Below, one piece after another: positions 18,033-25,735 of a stretch of 58,527 nucleotides of DNA. A program made the position numbers and the translations under genes. How positions within the stretch are numbered: the first letter of the stretch is position 1; each line of letters opens with the position of its first letter. The stretch comes from Clostridiaceae bacterium. GTDB lineage: Bacteria; Bacillota; Clostridia; Saccharofermentanales; Saccharofermentanaceae. The notes beneath the pieces were generated by a model. The model did no database searches. It saw nothing but the letters and a program-made list of their open reading frames with translations, and was not told the DNA's origin. Where the stretch lies: NCBI GenBank assembly GCA_012729635.1, contig JAAYCT010000001.1, forward strand, positions 1-58,527. Reading direction: 5' to 3'.

Positions 18033-18755
18033 GTGATTCGTTTTGAAAACGTTCATAAGACCTATAAATCCGGTTCGGATGCTCTTCGGGGTGTCAGTTT
18101 CAAAATTAATGACGGTGATTTTGTTTTCGTAATCGGCAAAAGCGGCTCGGGAAAATCCACGCTGATCAAGTTGATTACGCGGGAAGAGAAGCCTTCCGAC
18201 GGTTATGTCCTCATGGATCGTTTTCCGATATCAAAAATGCAGTCGGCGCTCGTTCCGGTTTTGCGAAGACACATCGGGATGATTTTTCAGGATTTCCGAT
18301 TGATCGAAAGTAAGACCGTTTTTGAAAATGTCGCATTTGCGGGCGAAATCATCGGAATGCCTCCCAAAAAGCTCAGCCAGATGGTTGAAATCGTTCTGGG
18401 CGTTGTCGATTTGCGTCACAAAGCACAGGCGATGCCGCTTGAACTCTCGGGCGGCGAACAGCAGCGCGTCGCCATTGCCCGTGCGATGGTAAACGACCCG
18501 AAACTGATCGTCGCGGATGAGCCGACCGGAAATCTGGATCCCCAGACCAGCGAATCGATCATGGCTCTGCTTGAAGAAATAAACCGTAACGGGACTACCG
18601 TGGTCATATGTACGCACGACAGCAATTTGGTCGACCGGATGAAGAAACGGGTTATTGAAATCGAGGACGGATTGATCATAAGGGACGAATTGGCGAGCGG
18701 ATACTGTGGCCACCGGGAAGCGAAATCCAACGTTGAGGAAGGGGAGAAAAAATGA
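18033..18755 (+). CDS. ftsE: Cell division ATP-binding protein FtsE
   Basis: FtsE is the ATPase of the FtsEX complex, which switches on peptidoglycan hydrolases at the septum or side wall. The 240-residue chain has Walker [10 protein letters not shown] at 35-43, Q-loop [20 protein letters not shown] (a typical FtsE stretch), signature [19 protein letters not shown] and Walker [16 protein letters not shown] 18033 has only a weak ribosome site. It overlaps ftsX by 4 nt. Confidence 0.95.
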
Positions 18756-19651
18756 GCGGAAGAGCCTTTCTCAACTCGGTTCGGGAAGGATTCAAAGGAA
18801 TATTCCGTCACCCGTTGGTTACGGTTGCTTCCGTAACGACGATATTACTGATGCTTCTTTTGATGGCCGCTTTTTTTGTTTTTTCCGCCAACGTCCGCAG
18901 TATCATGAAAAAAGTAAGTCAACAGCCTCCGATTGAAGTCTATATGAAGCTTTCCGGTACAAAGGAAGAACGAGACTCCGTAAAAATATTTCTCGAAGCG
19001 AATCCCGGAGCAATCCTTTCGTATGAGGAGTTGACGCCGGAACAGAATTATCATCGTTTTCGTGAAAACCTCGGAAGCGGATCCACAATCCTCGATAATT
19101 TTGACTATAACACCTATCTTCCGTATACGTTTCATGTCCAGTTGACGGATCCTTCGTATGCGGATGAGGTCGTAATCTATTTGGAAGCGATTCCCGGTGT
19201 GAAAAAAGTAATGCAGGAGCGAAGCGTTATGCTTTTTCTGGCGGAGGCGACCAAGTGGGTCAATGTGTCGACGCTCCTTGCTTTTGTCGTTCTGTTTCTG
19301 ATATCCATGTTTATCATATCCAATATGGTGCGTATTTCCGTGTATTCCCGGGCCACGGAGATCTCCATAATGAAATTTGTCGGAGCGACTCCGGGGTATA
19401 TTCGTCTTCCGTATGTCGTCGAGGGCGCGATTGTCGGGCTGATCAGCGCGATTTGCGCGTGGGGGATCGCACATTTGGCGTATTCAGAATTATTTGATAT
19501 GATGATGAAGGATGTTTCCGGAAGCAGTTACTACTCGCTGGTTCCCGTAAACTCCCTGACGTTCTGGGTTTTATTGATTTGTTTAGTGTTGGGAGTAGTA
19601 ATCGGCTCCGTCGGAAGCGGCGTTGCCGTACGTAAGTATATTATGGTATGA
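18752..19651 (+). CDS. ftsX: Cell division protein FtsX
   Basis: The permease-like partner of FtsE, 299 residues. A first membrane helix (about 21-45) is followed by an extracytoplasmic domain with [17 protein letters not shown] and a region ending VMQERSV, then three more helices (about 172-195, 220-245 and 265-290). Between helices 2 and 3 is the cytoplasmic [20 protein letters not shown], a hallmark of FtsX/MacB-type proteins. It does not transport; it relays ATP hydrolysis outward. The start overlaps ftsE (ATGA). Confidence 0.94.
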
Positions 19652-19663
19652 ACGGAGAGAATC

Positions 19664-20932
19664 ATGTTTGGTAAAGCGATGAAACGATTCGGAAAGATAT
19701 CCCGGAAAGACGGCTTGCGTCTTTCGTTATCAATCGTGTTGGCGATTGTTGTTACGGTCGGGTCTCTCGGGCTTTTTACGGAGAGGGCATTTGCGGCCCC
19801 CGAAACCAATATCCGGTTCTCAAAAATCGATCAGATCAATGAGGCAGAACAGGACAAGGAAGATACCGAAGATGCGCTGGCCGAGGCGGAGAGCAAAATT
19901 CAGGCGCTTCGCGGTGAGTTGAGTGAACTCAAGGGTGAGCTTCAGTATCTTAAGGATTTAAATGATGCGCAAAGAGCGCAGTATTTGAAAATTGCGGAAG
20001 AATACGCCGCCGCCTTGATTGCCAAGCAGGAAGCACTGGATATCTACCTTGAATCACAGGAAACATTGGAGAGAAAGAGCGCCGAATACTCCGAAAGGAT
20101 CAGCGTCATGTTTGAACTCCAGAACAAATCAACGCTGGAAATCCTTTTGGAATCCGACAGTCTCGCGGGATTTTTCACCAACCTGGAAATCGTTGAGTTA
20201 ATCGCCGAGTCGGACGAACAGATTATGGAAGAGATGGATGCGGCACTTTGTGACGCTCAGCTCAAAAGTGAATATGCTCTTCAGGAAGCCCTGGACATGG
20301 AGGCTGTTGCCGAGCAAAAGCAAGCCGAGTTGATTGAACTTGAGGGAATGATCGGAAAGACCGAGGCGACCCTCAATGAGAAAGAAGCCGAATTGTCGAA
20401 GTGGGAGAAGAAACAGGAAGAGTTGGAAAAGGAGTCCGATAGACTGGACAAAGAAATACTGCGTCTTCAGAACGAGTTGTATGCCGGAAGCGGCTCGAAC
20501 GGAACGCCGCCTCCTCAGGGGTCAATGACGTGGCCGTATCCCGGGGACTACAAGATTTATTCTCCGTACGGCAAGAGATTTCATCCGGTCTATAAGGTTT
20601 GGAGAATGCATTGGGGTGTAGATCTCGGCGGCTCGTACGGCAATCCGATCGTTGCGGCGGCAGACGGAACCGTAATTAAGGTCAGTACTCCGGTTCATGG
20701 TCAGAATACGGGCGGAAGAGATTTTGGAAATTATGTGGTCATTGATCACGGCGGCGGTGTTTCAACGTTGTACGCACACTGTAAATGGGTGGATGTTTCT
20801 GTCGGAGACAAGGTCGTAGCGGGACAAAAGGTCGCACGCTGCGGCAGTACCGGAACTTCAACCGGCCCGCATCTGCATTTCGAGGTCAGAGTCAACGGCA
20901 GCAGGGTGAATCCGGCGAATTATATCACCTGA
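19664..20932 (+). CDS. Coiled-coil M23 peptidase, FtsEX-linked (EnvC/PcsB-like role)
   Basis: A secreted 422-residue protein. It has a signal peptide with a predicted cut after AFA at residue 44, a long coiled coil (about 55-270), a short linker with GSGSNGTPPPQG-like residues and a C-terminal LytM/M23 metallopeptidase domain. The zinc ligands are visible in HWGVDLGG near 318 and HLHFEVRVNGS near 403, so the enzyme looks active. Twelve nucleotides downstream of ftsX, it is the likely hydrolase activated by FtsEX, comparable to EnvC or PcsB. Its precise cut (endopeptidase) is assumed from family. Confidence 0.9.
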   Translation: MFGKAMKRFGKISRKDGLRLSLSIVLAIVVTVGSLGLFTERAFAAPETNIRFSKIDQINEAEQDKEDTEDALAEAESKIQALRGELSELKGELQYLKDLNDAQRAQYLKIAEEYAAALIAKQEALDIYLESQETLERKSAEYSERISVMFELQNKSTLEILLESDSLAGFFTNLEIVELIAESDEQIMEEMDAALCDAQLKSEYALQEALDMEAVAEQKQAELIELEGMIGKTEATLNEKEAELSKWEKKQEELEKESDRLDKEILRLQNELYAGSGSNGTPPPQGSMTWPYPGDYKIYSPYGKRFHPVYKVWRMHWGVDLGGSYGNPIVAAADGTVIKVSTPVHGQNTGGRDFGNYVVIDHGGGVSTLYAHCKWVDVSVGDKVVAGQKVARCGSTGTSTGPHLHFEVRVNGSRVNPANYIT

Positions 20933-21759: not shown

Positions 21760-22734
21760 ATGAACGACAAAAACAATGATTTTTATCGCGCTCCCGGGTC
21801 TCCGGAGGACCCGACTGCAGATTACATGGTGACCGCGACCGCCTTAAACGGTAAGGTGCGGGCAATTTCCGTCACTACAAAAGAAATCTGTAATCGAGCG
21901 ATGCGCATACACGGCACTTCACCGTCCGCCACCGCGGCTTTGGGTCGATTTTTGACGGGGACGCTGTTGCTCGCGGCGAATCTGAAGGGTGAAAAGGACA
22001 CGCTGACCGCAAACATCCGCTGCGAGGGTCCGATTCAGGGGATGACCGCGGTGTGTGATGCCGGCGGGAATATTCGAGGCTACGTCATCGAACCGGTCGT
22101 TGAGACCGTATTGCGGGAACCGGGGAAACTCAATGTCGCGGCCGCGGTCGGCAAGGGACTTTTGACGGTTGTTCGGGACCTTGGACTCAAGGAGCCGTAT
22201 GTCGGTTCCGCCGAACTGGTGTCCGGTGAAATCGGTGAGGATTTTGCATACTATCTCGGAGTGAGCGAGCAGACTCGATCGGTGGTTTCTCTGGGCGTAC
22301 TGCTTGACGCGAGCGGAGTTTTATACGCCGGCGGAATGATGGTTCAACTGATGCCCGATGCCGGGGAGGATATTATCGAATATATCGAAAAAAGAGCAGG
22401 GGGAGGCTTTCCCGGGATCACGTTCCTGCTCTCTGAAGGGATGAATCCCGAAAAACTGTTGGACTTGTTTCTCGGAGATCCCGATATTCGATTTTTGTCC
22501 GGACGCACGGTTCAATACTGCTGTCCGTGCAGTCTGGATCGAATGGAGCAATCGTTGACGGCACTCGGTGTCACGGAGCTCACCGAGCTCGCCTCGGATC
22601 CGAACGGAATCGAACTGGAATGCCATTTCTGCGGTGCGAAGCATCGATTTGAAGCGAAGGACGTCTGCCGTATTCTGGAGAATGCGACAGGGATCGGCGC
22701 AAGAAACGGCTCAAAAAAAGAATCATCCGAATAA
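21760..22734 (+). CDS. hslO: Redox-regulated chaperone Hsp33
   Basis: A holdase switched on by oxidation of zinc-binding cysteines. The 324-residue protein has the family N-terminal domain (RAISVTTKEICNRAMRIHG and ALGRFLTGTLLLAANLKG) and the C-terminal zinc switch as C255-x-C257 and C288-xx-C291, the right spacing. Length is slightly longer than the 290-300 norm because of N- and C-terminal tails. The start has GAAAGGGA upstream. The next gene begins 34 nt later. Confidence 0.95.
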   Translation: MNDKNNDFYRAPGSPEDPTADYMVTATALNGKVRAISVTTKEICNRAMRIHGTSPSATAALGRFLTGTLLLAANLKGEKDTLTANIRCEGPIQGMTAVCDAGGNIRGYVIEPVVETVLREPGKLNVAAAVGKGLLTVVRDLGLKEPYVGSAELVSGEIGEDFAYYLGVSEQTRSVVSLGVLLDASGVLYAGGMMVQLMPDAGEDIIEYIEKRAGGGFPGITFLLSEGMNPEKLLDLFLGDPDIRFLSGRTVQYCCPCSLDRMEQSLTALGVTELTELASDPNGIELECHFCGAKHRFEAKDVCRILENATGIGARNGSKKESSE

Positions 22735-22768
22735 TGCGAATCCCAACGAAACGAGAAGGATGATCCGC

Positions 22769-25735
22769 ATGAACGAGACAAACATAACGGAAAAACGCAT
22801 TTTTTTCTGGGACAACCTGAAAGGGGTACTCATTGCCCTCGTGGTCCTCGGACACTTCATGCTCGGATACGGATATCACGAATCCGTTCTTATGGTGGTT
22901 GGAGGAATTTATACCTTTCATATGCCTGTATTTGTGTTTGCTTCCGGGTATTTAAGCGCGAAAAGCACCGCCGGACTCAAAAAACCCCTGTCGCTTTTTC
23001 TCGTTGCCTATGCGGTGTTCAATACCCTGGCGATTTTCTATTTCTTTTTGGTCGACGGTCAGCCGGTATCGTTCTTTGTTCCGTACATATCATTTTGGTA
23101 CCTTTTGGCACTCATCGCATGGCGCCTGATTCTCCGAGTCGTTCCGAAAAAGCCGGCATCGCTGATTCTGGCCATCGCTTTCGCGATCATCGTCGGGTTA
23201 TCCCCCCAGGTTACGAACGAAATGGCACTTTCGCGAATCATCGCATTCTTTCCGTTCTTTCTCGCGGGGGCGATGATTCCTTGGAAGCAAGTTTATGAAT
23301 ATCGGAAAAAACGAAAAGCGACGAGCCGGATGATCGGCATCCTGACGGCGGTGCTTACCGCGGCTTTAATTCTGGTGTTGGTGCCCCGTGTTCTTCGTTT
23401 CAGCGAATTGCTGATGGTCTCCTACGTAAATCAGGGAGATCTCGCGAGGCGGGTTGCGGTATTCGCGATTTCCTTTCTCGCGATTGCTTCCGCGATGCTT
23501 CTTCTCCCGGATCGAAAAGTTCGATTTCTCTCTTCCTGGGGTCGTAATTCGCTTTCCGTTTATTTGATTCACCGTTTCATTACGCTGGTCGCGGTGCGTC
23601 TGCTGCCGTTCAGAGACGATCCGTTGCCGGCCGTGATTGTTTCGGTCGTCGGGACGATTCTTGTTTTGGCTGTCTTCGGAAGTGACATGGCCGAGCGATC
23701 TCTTCGCGCTTTTTTGGTTGGAATTGCGGATCGGCTGAAATTTTCGCCGGATTCGGTGATTCATCAAAAAAACAGAGTGTTTCGGCTCACTGCGCTCCTG
23801 ATTGTATCCGTGGTATTTGCGTTGTCCGTGATCGGAGAAGTACCGGATTCGGTAAGCTCCGGGGAAAAACCCGACACACGTCCCGCCATTGCGAATGTTT
23901 TGACGGAAGCGGATCGTGAAGCGATTGATCATGCCGTCAGCATCGCATTTATCGGTGATCTGATATTGCTTCGCGGACAAGTGGTGGCCGCATACGATCA
24001 CGCGACGGATTCCTATGATTTTTCCGAAATGTTTCGTTACGCGGCTCCTTATTTGGATGCGGATCTGACCATCGGCGTCTTTGAAGGCCCGATGGCCGGA
24101 AAGGAAGCCGGATACTCCTCGTCTGATTACGATGACGGCCTGGCGCTCTCCCTGAATTTTCCGGACTCGTTTGCCGCTTCTGTCCGCGAAGCGGGTATCG
24201 AATGGGTCACACTGGCGAATAATCATATATTGGACAAGGGTCTTGAGGGTGCTTATCGTACCGTCGATGTTTTGGATCGTGCCGGTATTTCACACATCGG
24301 TTCTTATCGAAACGCCGAAGAAAAAAATGCGGTTCGAATGATCGAAAAGGACGGACTTAGAATCGCCTTTCTGGAGTATACCTTTGCATCGAACGGCTGG
24401 GAGGATGAATATTTTCTTTTTGAAAACAAGGATTTGACGCGACTGATCGTTTCCCCGGAAAGTGAATTTTTTGACGAGGTCCGCACGGCGGTTGAAAATG
24501 ATTTCGAAAGAGTGCGCGGCGAGGACCCCGATATAATCATCGTCTTGCCGCACATGGGAACGCAGTTTACTCATGAGACGGACGCATATCAGGATGCGTG
24601 GAACGAGATTTTTATTCGTGCCGGCGCGGATATCGTTTTCGGAGACCACGCTCATGCGGTCCAGCCGATTGAGTATGTAACCGATACCGGAGCGGACGAT
24701 GCGCCGCGAACCGCGATCATTGTAAATTGTCCGGGAAATTTCGCGAACTCGTTTGTTCGGATGAACGGTGACGCGACAGCCATCGTCAAAGTGTATATTG
24801 ATCCGGCCTCCGGGGAAATCCTTTGTTCTTCCGTAATTCCGATGTGGACGCACGGTAATTCCAAAGGATTTTTCCGGGCGCTTCCGATTTTCGAAATTCT
24901 GACGAATGCTGAATTGCACGCCCGGCTGAGTGCAAACGATATGTCGAGGGTCCGTGAGGTCCAACACATCGTAACCTCCGTCATGCTCGGAACATCGATA
25001 TCAGCGGACCGCGCCCAGGATGAATATTATCTTTTCCCGGACGGTTATCGCCGTCAAAAATCCCCGCCGTTGGAAATGGAGGCGGACGAGTACCGGACCG
25101 AACAGATTCGAATGATTCGGGAAGCTGCGTCGGTATGTTTGGTCGGCGACAGCTTAAGCAACGGATCAAACAACGGCGGATACCCTTGGTTTGAGGCGTT
25201 GACCGCTGCGTTTCCCGAAAAGAGTTTTGAAAGCATTGCGGCGGGCGGAGCGACGTCCCGGACGCTTTTGTCGGCGGTTGAATCGGATACGGTCGAGGCG
25301 CAGCTATTCATTATCGCCGTCGGCGCGAACGATATCCGTTATCGCGACGATTCGATCTGCGCGATGACGCCGGAGGCGTACACATCGACTCTTCGGGCGT
25401 TGGTCCGAGAACTGCGTATGCAAAATCGGGACGCAGAGTTTATTTTTGTCGCACCTTGGCCTTCGCTCGAGATGGATCCTTTTACTCCTTTGCTTCCGGA
25501 GGAAAAAAACGAAATGTACTGCGCGTACACGACCGCGCTGGAAATATTCTGCGGAGAAGACGGACACCTTTTTGTCGATCCGACAAGAATAATCCTCGAC
25601 CGACTCGCGTCAGAGCCGGTATCCGAATACCTGACCGACCATATTCACCCGAACGGTACAAAAGGGATACGCTTATACAGTCACGCGTTTTCTTCGGCGG
25701 GACGATTTTCGGAACCGGATTCGGGCCGGAAATAG
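22769..25735 (+). CDS. Membrane acyltransferase - CapA - SGNH hydrolase fusion
   Basis: A 988-residue three-part protein. Residues about 12-345 hold roughly ten membrane helices opening with FWDNLKGVLIALVVLGHF, as in acyltransferase-3 / fucose 4-O-acetylase proteins. Residues about 388-700 are CapA (PGA_cap)-like: FIGDLILL, a metal site TLANNHILDKG and GDHAHAVQPIEYV. Residues about 783-985 are an SGNH hydrolase with GDSLSNGS, GANDIR and the DHIHPN catalytic pair. AT3-SGNH proteins such as OatA O-acetylate wall polymers; a CapA domain between the two is unusual. It probably modifies a cell-surface polysaccharide or peptide polymer. ATG 22769 was chosen for the GAAGGA site 9 nt upstream; longer starts overlap hslO. 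Confidence 0.8.
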   Translation: MNETNITEKRIFFWDNLKGVLIALVVLGHFMLGYGYHESVLMVVGGIYTFHMPVFVFASGYLSAKSTAGLKKPLSLFLVAYAVFNTLAIFYFFLVDGQPVSFFVPYISFWYLLALIAWRLILRVVPKKPASLILAIAFAIIVGLSPQVTNEMALSRIIAFFPFFLAGAMIPWKQVYEYRKKRKATSRMIGILTAVLTAALILVLVPRVLRFSELLMVSYVNQGDLARRVAVFAISFLAIASAMLLLPDRKVRFLSSWGRNSLSVYLIHRFITLVAVRLLPFRDDPLPAVIVSVVGTILVLAVFGSDMAERSLRAFLVGIADRLKFSPDSVIHQKNRVFRLTALLIVSVVFALSVIGEVPDSVSSGEKPDTRPAIANVLTEADREAIDHAVSIAFIGDLILLRGQVVAAYDHATDSYDFSEMFRYAAPYLDADLTIGVFEGPMAGKEAGYSSSDYDDGLALSLNFPDSFAASVREAGIEWVTLANNHILDKGLEGAYRTVDVLDRAGISHIGSYRNAEEKNAVRMIEKDGLRIAFLEYTFASNGWEDEYFLFENKDLTRLIVSPESEFFDEVRTAVENDFERVRGEDPDIIIVLPHMGTQFTHETDAYQDAWNEIFIRAGADIVFGDHAHAVQPIEYVTDTGADDAPRTAIIVNCPGNFANSFVRMNGDATAIVKVYIDPASGEILCSSVIPMWTHGNSKGFFRALPIFEILTNAELHARLSANDMSRVREVQHIVTSVMLGTSISADRAQDEYYLFPDGYRRQKSPPLEMEADEYRTEQIRMIREAASVCLVGDSLSNGSNNGGYPWFEALTAAFPEKSFESIAAGGATSRTLLSAVESDTVEAQLFIIAVGANDIRYRDDSICAMTPEAYTSTLRALVRELRMQNRDAEFIFVAPWPSLEMDPFTPLLPEEKNEMYCAYTTALEIFCGEDGHLFVDPTRIILDRLASEPVSEYLTDHIHPNGTKGIRLYSHAFSSAGRFSEPDSGRK

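Follow-up and report, generated by a model that had tools for sequence, protein, structure and literature searches.

The window, the whole stretch of 58,527 nucleotides from a Clostridiaceae bacterium that was analysed, holds a gene for a single chain with an AT3 membrane acyltransferase, a CapA-like metal domain and an SGNH hydrolase-fold domain. What such a protein does is the question that this locus raises. The initial annotation had read the three domains in this order in one protein of 988 residues, and Pfam together with the open frame bore this out, coordinates included (Table 1). The reading that we favour, and hold tentatively, is a self-contained cell-envelope acyl-modifying enzyme that works sequentially, its CapA and SGNH domains acting on an acylated substrate.

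Table 1. Features of the three-domain gene in the window
Feature	Position	Strand	Basis
Whole three-domain gene	22769..25735	+	988 residues plus stop; open frame, 67 single-frame homologues
AT3 (Acyl_transf_3) domain, residues 13-301	22805..23671	+	ten membrane helices, K18-x10-H29; Pfam, HGSNAT fold match
Eleventh membrane helix (predicted), residues 332-355	23762..23833	+	model, hydropathy, flanking charges
CapA (PGA_cap) calcineurin-like metal domain	23927..25045	+	residues 387-759 by structure; Pfam 392-660
SGNH/GDSL hydrolase-fold domain, residues 780-979	25106..25705	+	Pfam, GDSL acetyl-esterase matches, conservation

The gene, its domains and its active sites

The gene hslO (Hsp33) ends at 22734, 34 bases 5' of the start codon. 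The purine-rich GAGAAGG stands immediately 5' of the ATG at 22769; translation might alternatively begin at a second in-frame ATG, at 22760. The S10 ribosomal-protein operon, recognised by reading the translations, lies 3' of the gene. A few genes upstream, at 18033-20932 of the window, genes for an FtsE-/FtsX-like ABC ATPase and permease precede one for an M23 peptidase that bears a PcsB-like coiled coil, an FtsEX-hydrolase trio of the usual kind. A frame split by sequencing error, which the initial annotation had considered, is excluded by the intact frame in the window and by 67 single-frame homologues. The three-domain observation is real and neither chance nor an assembly artefact.

All three domains were detected by Pfam far above the respective cut-offs, namely Acyl_transf_3 (PF01757, residues 13-301) with E 4e-19 and 69 bits against a cut-off of 31, PGA_cap (PF09587, residues 392-660) with E 2.6e-52 and 178 bits against 27, and Lipase_GDSL_2 (PF13472, residues 792-963) with E 7e-16. 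The SGNH triad had been called complete, and indeed every block is present and conserved: GDS at 793-795, block II with G827, GxND at 852-855 and DxxH at 957-960, with S795, G827, N854, D957 and H960 as site residues. S795 is invariant in the homologue alignment; N854, D957 and H960 are altered in locus L077 only. The metal and catalytic set of CapA is full as well. D397, E439, N485, H486, D489, H595 and H627 are invariant, and H629 is altered in one of 77 aligned sequences. H595 would complete a canonical two-metal phosphoesterase site. The NCBIfam equivalog model for the epimerase MslH gave 18 bits with the window protein against a cut-off of 700; the fold is nevertheless shared (see below).

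The AT3 part carries DxxR/K with R/K-x10-H on TMH1 and FxxxxG on TMH2, which are motifs of AT3/TmAT proteins (PMC9833829, PMC12423673). Essentially every three-domain form retains D15xxK18, K18-x10-H29, H51, F55xxxxG60, W110 and H268; L129 has R in place of K18, and the other deviations belong to L119 and to L136, a misaligned row without AT3. The RxxR motif of TMH3 is absent from the window protein, in which this helix begins with KKPLSLFLVAY, and only a single K/R (column 76) is frequent there among the homologues. RxxR on TMH3 is not universal across the TmAT superfamily (PMC12423673). By similarity, the AT3 part is nearest to AT3-only proteins, such as NolL (a weak match) and Listeria AT3 proteins (33% over residues 1-270).

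Predicted structure

An AlphaFold2 model built from 67 sequences (pLDDT 90.7, pTM 0.68) was used, as seven sequences alone gave a pLDDT of 69 only. In it, the AT3 part has ten membrane helices, and an eleventh (332-355) precedes the two soluble domains. The ten-helix acyltransferase proposed from the sequence was thereby confirmed. VIA-align against the PDB also supports it: over 283-288 residues (Z 17), the stretch 8-316 matched HGSNAT, the acetyl-CoA transferase of human lysosomes. In the same comparison, residues 387-759 matched MslH with Z 30 (314-317 residues, 3.3-3.4 Å), which upholds the CapA fold with its metal site, and residues 778-979 matched GDSL acetyl-esterases with Z 18-19. Acetyl-esterases such as Axe2 are the closest SGNH structures, and phosphodiesterases are included among the fold matches. 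The SGNH part accounts for most of the Foldseek and VIA match lists, and the lack of other folds in them therefore proves nothing.

The sequence of helix 332-355 is hydrophobic; it opens with basic residues, and an acidic stretch comes after it. From these features, CapA and SGNH are predicted to lie outside the membrane.

Distribution and co-inheritance

Six full-length orthologues with 36-45% identity were found in the same taxonomic family, four of them in a single other genus and one each in two more. One of these loci, L024, shares its contig with L097 of Candidatus Scatonaster coprocaballi (Saccharofermentanaceae), which makes this family the most likely source of the window. At order level, 32 of 188 genomes matched the profile strongly; in 28 of these the match spans at least two of the three domains within a single frame, and the remaining four are single-domain genes. 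The class sample (391 genomes) and the phylum sample (398 genomes) each added three others with long matches. A scan of 84,980 species genomes gave no match with the single protein as query and 80 loci with an alignment-based profile. AT3, CapA and SGNH stand in one frame at 67 of the 80 and in a split frame at one more. The domain order thus recurs across genomes, as the initial annotation had suggested should be searched for, and it is not peculiar to this genome. Single-frame carriers are mostly Clostridia; others are Bacilli bins (L129, L131, L133, L135, L137, L141), Riflebacteria (L065, L069), Rhodospira trueperi ATCC 700224 (L074) and a Planctomycetaceae bin (L112). The architecture is spread thinly but widely, across several phyla. 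A one-off fusion in a single MAG is ruled out by this range of phyla, by the many assemblies and by two non-MAG strains. A plasmid or phage origin was also rejected: no place in either collection covers 80% of the protein, and only single-domain matches were obtained.

Sequence distances calculated for each domain correlate with those of the other two (0.66-0.87, Mantel p 0.001), a pattern that long co-inheritance would produce. The best agreement was found for the pair CapA-SGNH (r 0.87). CapA also has the highest mean pairwise identity with 54%, followed by SGNH with 45% and AT3 with 36%. Among 81 flanking genes, no recurrent neighbours beyond local synteny were detected, and the enzyme therefore appears self-sufficient, like OatA. 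In one genus, a gene with a LacI-type sugar-binding and a GGDEF (diguanylate cyclase) domain lies directly 5' of the three-domain gene (L022 6596-8425, L026 704-2539); a link to c-di-GMP through this adjoining gene is possible.

CapA-SGNH genes without AT3

CapA-SGNH without an AT3 domain occurs at eight loci (L119, L121, L122, L127, L132, L136, L142 and L169; L170 and L142 are one and the same place, counted once). At six of the eight, a hexapeptide acetyltransferase gene is located directly 5'. Five of these genes (upstream in L119, L121, L122, L127 and L142) form one tight family of 182-204 residues with 42-78% mutual identity, closest to the EpsC/CysE models and far below their cut-offs. 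The hexapeptide gene overlaps the start of the CapA-SGNH gene in L122, L127 and L142. In L132, the upstream hexapeptide protein is more distant and an MBOAT gene is nearby. The tight family was found within 6 kb of three-domain genes at none of the loci. Fisher's test gave 4e-7 over loci and, for the tight family only, 3e-4 with lineages collapsed, this collapse being the sole treatment of kinship. The link rests on few independent lineages. No CapA-SGNH gene other than that of L122 was found in 344 Bacteroidales genomes, and 151 genomes of L127's order gave three matches, i.e. L127's own genome, that of L142 and the new L169.

At L119 (7016-10301), an AT3 remnant is followed by an intact CapA-SGNH part, and the hexapeptide gene ends seven bases upstream. 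The membrane part aligns with AT3 and is devoid of K18, H29, H51, W110, R119, S261 and H268. Judged by its sequence, L119 looks like a transitional form, a natural case of acyltransferase replacement. As the hexapeptide-linked forms occupy three separate parts of the CapA-SGNH tree, the exchange of AT3 for a hexapeptide enzyme has probably occurred more than once. Given the hexapeptide genes beside AT3-less CapA-SGNH and the dead AT3 of L119, CapA-SGNH looks like the core and the acyltransferase like its exchangeable part.

At L136 (5170-9384), a sugar-transfer-type ATP-grasp gene, the CapA-SGNH gene and a separate AT3 gene follow one another in the 5' to 3' direction, which gives a lead to the substrate.

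Proposed function

We infer the following order of steps. The AT3 (TmAT) part would place an acyl group on an extracytoplasmic or lipid-linked substrate; this group is most likely acetyl, supplied by acetyl-CoA. Outside the membrane, the conserved core of CapA and SGNH would act on this acylated substrate. SGNH may move or remove the acyl ester via Ser795, while CapA would catalyse a metal-dependent step on the same molecule, either epimerisation at an amino-acid α-carbon, as in MslH, or cleavage of a phosphoester. In the relatives with an upstream hexapeptide acetyltransferase instead of AT3, the acyl group would need to arrive only within the acylated molecule.

The main rival is a relay like that of OatA and OafB, in which AT3 carries acetyl across the membrane to Ser795 and SGNH acetylates an extracytoplasmic acceptor that CapA binds, positions or prepares. 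We consider it rather less probable than the sequential scheme. The order of AT3, TMH11 and SGNH is the same as in OatA/OafB, and both the complete SGNH triad and the K-x10-H motif of AT3 fit a relay. Known hexapeptide acetyltransferases are soluble cytosolic enzymes. For an enzyme of this type, direct delivery of an acyl group to an SGNH domain outside would be impossible. This suggests that CapA-SGNH needs an acylated substrate and not a direct hand-over. Straight transfer between AT3 and SGNH, as initially proposed, thus stands as only one possibility, weakened by the replacement of AT3 in relatives. The relay is further opposed by the roughly 370 residues of CapA between AT3 and SGNH, by the persistence of SGNH-only remnants without AT3 and by the full conserved metal set, which makes CapA unlikely to be a mere binding module. 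In OafB and OatA, the fused SGNH domain is required for transfer (PMC9833829, PMC9487903), which favours the relay, whereas AT3-only proteins, the nearest relatives of the AT3 part, are thought to finish transfer without SGNH (PMC9558356), which counts for the sequential scheme. Two loci count against the sequential scheme: L169, closely related to those with a hexapeptide acetyltransferase gene, has no such gene, and in L136 a separate AT3 gene stands in its place. Taken together, the exchange of AT3 for a hexapeptide enzyme, the superior conservation of CapA and the close correlation of CapA with SGNH favour the sequential scheme over the relay.

For the CapA step in the sequential scheme, the structure matches include only one CapA-family enzyme of known chemistry, MslH, whose epimerase activity depends on Ca(II) (PMC10406935). 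In a new kind of envelope-modifying machine, CapA might act as an extracytoplasmic epimerase, or as another enzyme directed at an amino-acid or phosphoester moiety, coupled to both acylation and de-acylation of one substrate, with AT3, hexapeptide enzyme and possibly MBOAT as exchangeable module; in this specific form, the proposal is speculative and unlikely to hold in full.

It is still less likely that the protein edits an acyl cycle, with AT3 adding an ester, the SGNH esterase removing it and CapA, as a phosphodiesterase, releasing or remodelling a polymer, e.g. a teichoic-acid-like one. This would agree with the acetyl-esterases as nearest SGNH structures, with the complete and typical oxyanion set of SGNH, with H595 as completion of the two-metal set and with the phosphodiesterases among the fold matches. 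However, a chain with two opposing activities would run a futile cycle unless it were regulated, and polymer genes are not recurrent nearby. A part in a poly-γ-glutamate capsule system, to which the Pfam name of the middle domain and the initial annotation had pointed, is very improbable, since no cap/pgs genes adjoin the three-domain gene and none of 25 carrier genomes had a match to CapC (PF14102) above the cut-off, with Bacillus subtilis as positive control.

Relation to known systems

The protein is a variant of the AT3-SGNH kind with CapA added. With OatA, OafA/OafB and PglI it shares the ten-helix AT3, the eleventh helix, a C-terminal SGNH domain outside with its Ser, Gly, Asn and His blocks, and the stand-alone gene. 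It differs from them in that SGNH does not follow the membrane part directly or by a short linker, the CapA metal domain (387-759) being placed between, and in its AT3 part, which is nearer to AT3-only proteins. MslH, the lasso-peptide epimerase, has the same calcineurin-like fold and D/E/N-H-D/H-x-H residue set; unlike MslH, CapA shows the extra conserved H595, is membrane-anchored and fused, has 15% identity to it and is found without lasso peptide genes. CapA/PgsA of poly-γ-glutamate synthesis belongs to the same Pfam family, but lacks the added AT3 and SGNH domains, and the carriers are without its CapC partner.

The VanT-type fusions of AT3 and alanine racemase (PMC9558356) also join AT3 to a domain possibly concerned with amino-acid stereochemistry (for CapA by analogy with MslH only), yet have an unrelated racemase fold and no SGNH domain. 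HGSNAT and the TmAT superfamily (PMC12423673) have in common with the window protein the fold of a ten-helix acetyl-CoA membrane transferase, Dxx(R/K) on TMH1 and FxxxxG on TMH2; they differ in their extra domains, and the window protein has no RxxR on TMH3. For bacteria, PMC9833829, PMC9558356 and PMC12423673 describe AT3 fusions with SGNH and with alanine racemase, not with CapA. Literature searches, including the AT3 and SGNH literature, retrieved no description of AT3-CapA-SGNH; among the computed architectures of domain databases it must already appear. Apparently, the three-part protein has not been described before, in line with the new architecture that had been suggested.

One polypeptide joins CapA chemistry to acyl transfer, and 67 other genomes keep it with all three active sites intact. 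One carrier, Rhodospira trueperi ATCC 700224, is in culture, and nature provides variants with a dead, lost or replaced module; the order of steps and the roles of the domains thereby become testable.

Further natural variants

L077 (8013-10892) has its full length and an intact AT3, while its SGNH site is dead (N to H, DxxH to NxxQ) and Q replaces H629 of CapA. In G144, AT3 alone is left, in a dnaX/recR neighbourhood partly common to the three-domain loci L080 and L104; L174 (6999-8075) is an AT3-only gene with a dnaX/recR neighbourhood, and its AT3 is very similar to that of the three-domain family. In G005 and G023, a membrane-anchored SGNH-only protein is encoded between the LacI-type/GGDEF gene and an anaerobic ribonucleotide reductase-like gene, at the place where G016 and G018 have the full three-domain gene. 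Membrane-anchored SGNH-only genes stand at the place of the sister species' three-domain gene in L027 (4569-5333) and L028 (8060-8824). Those of L029 (8107-8865) and L175 (5534-6334) adjoin a PpdK-like gene; in L023, a gene of this type lies beside the three-domain gene.
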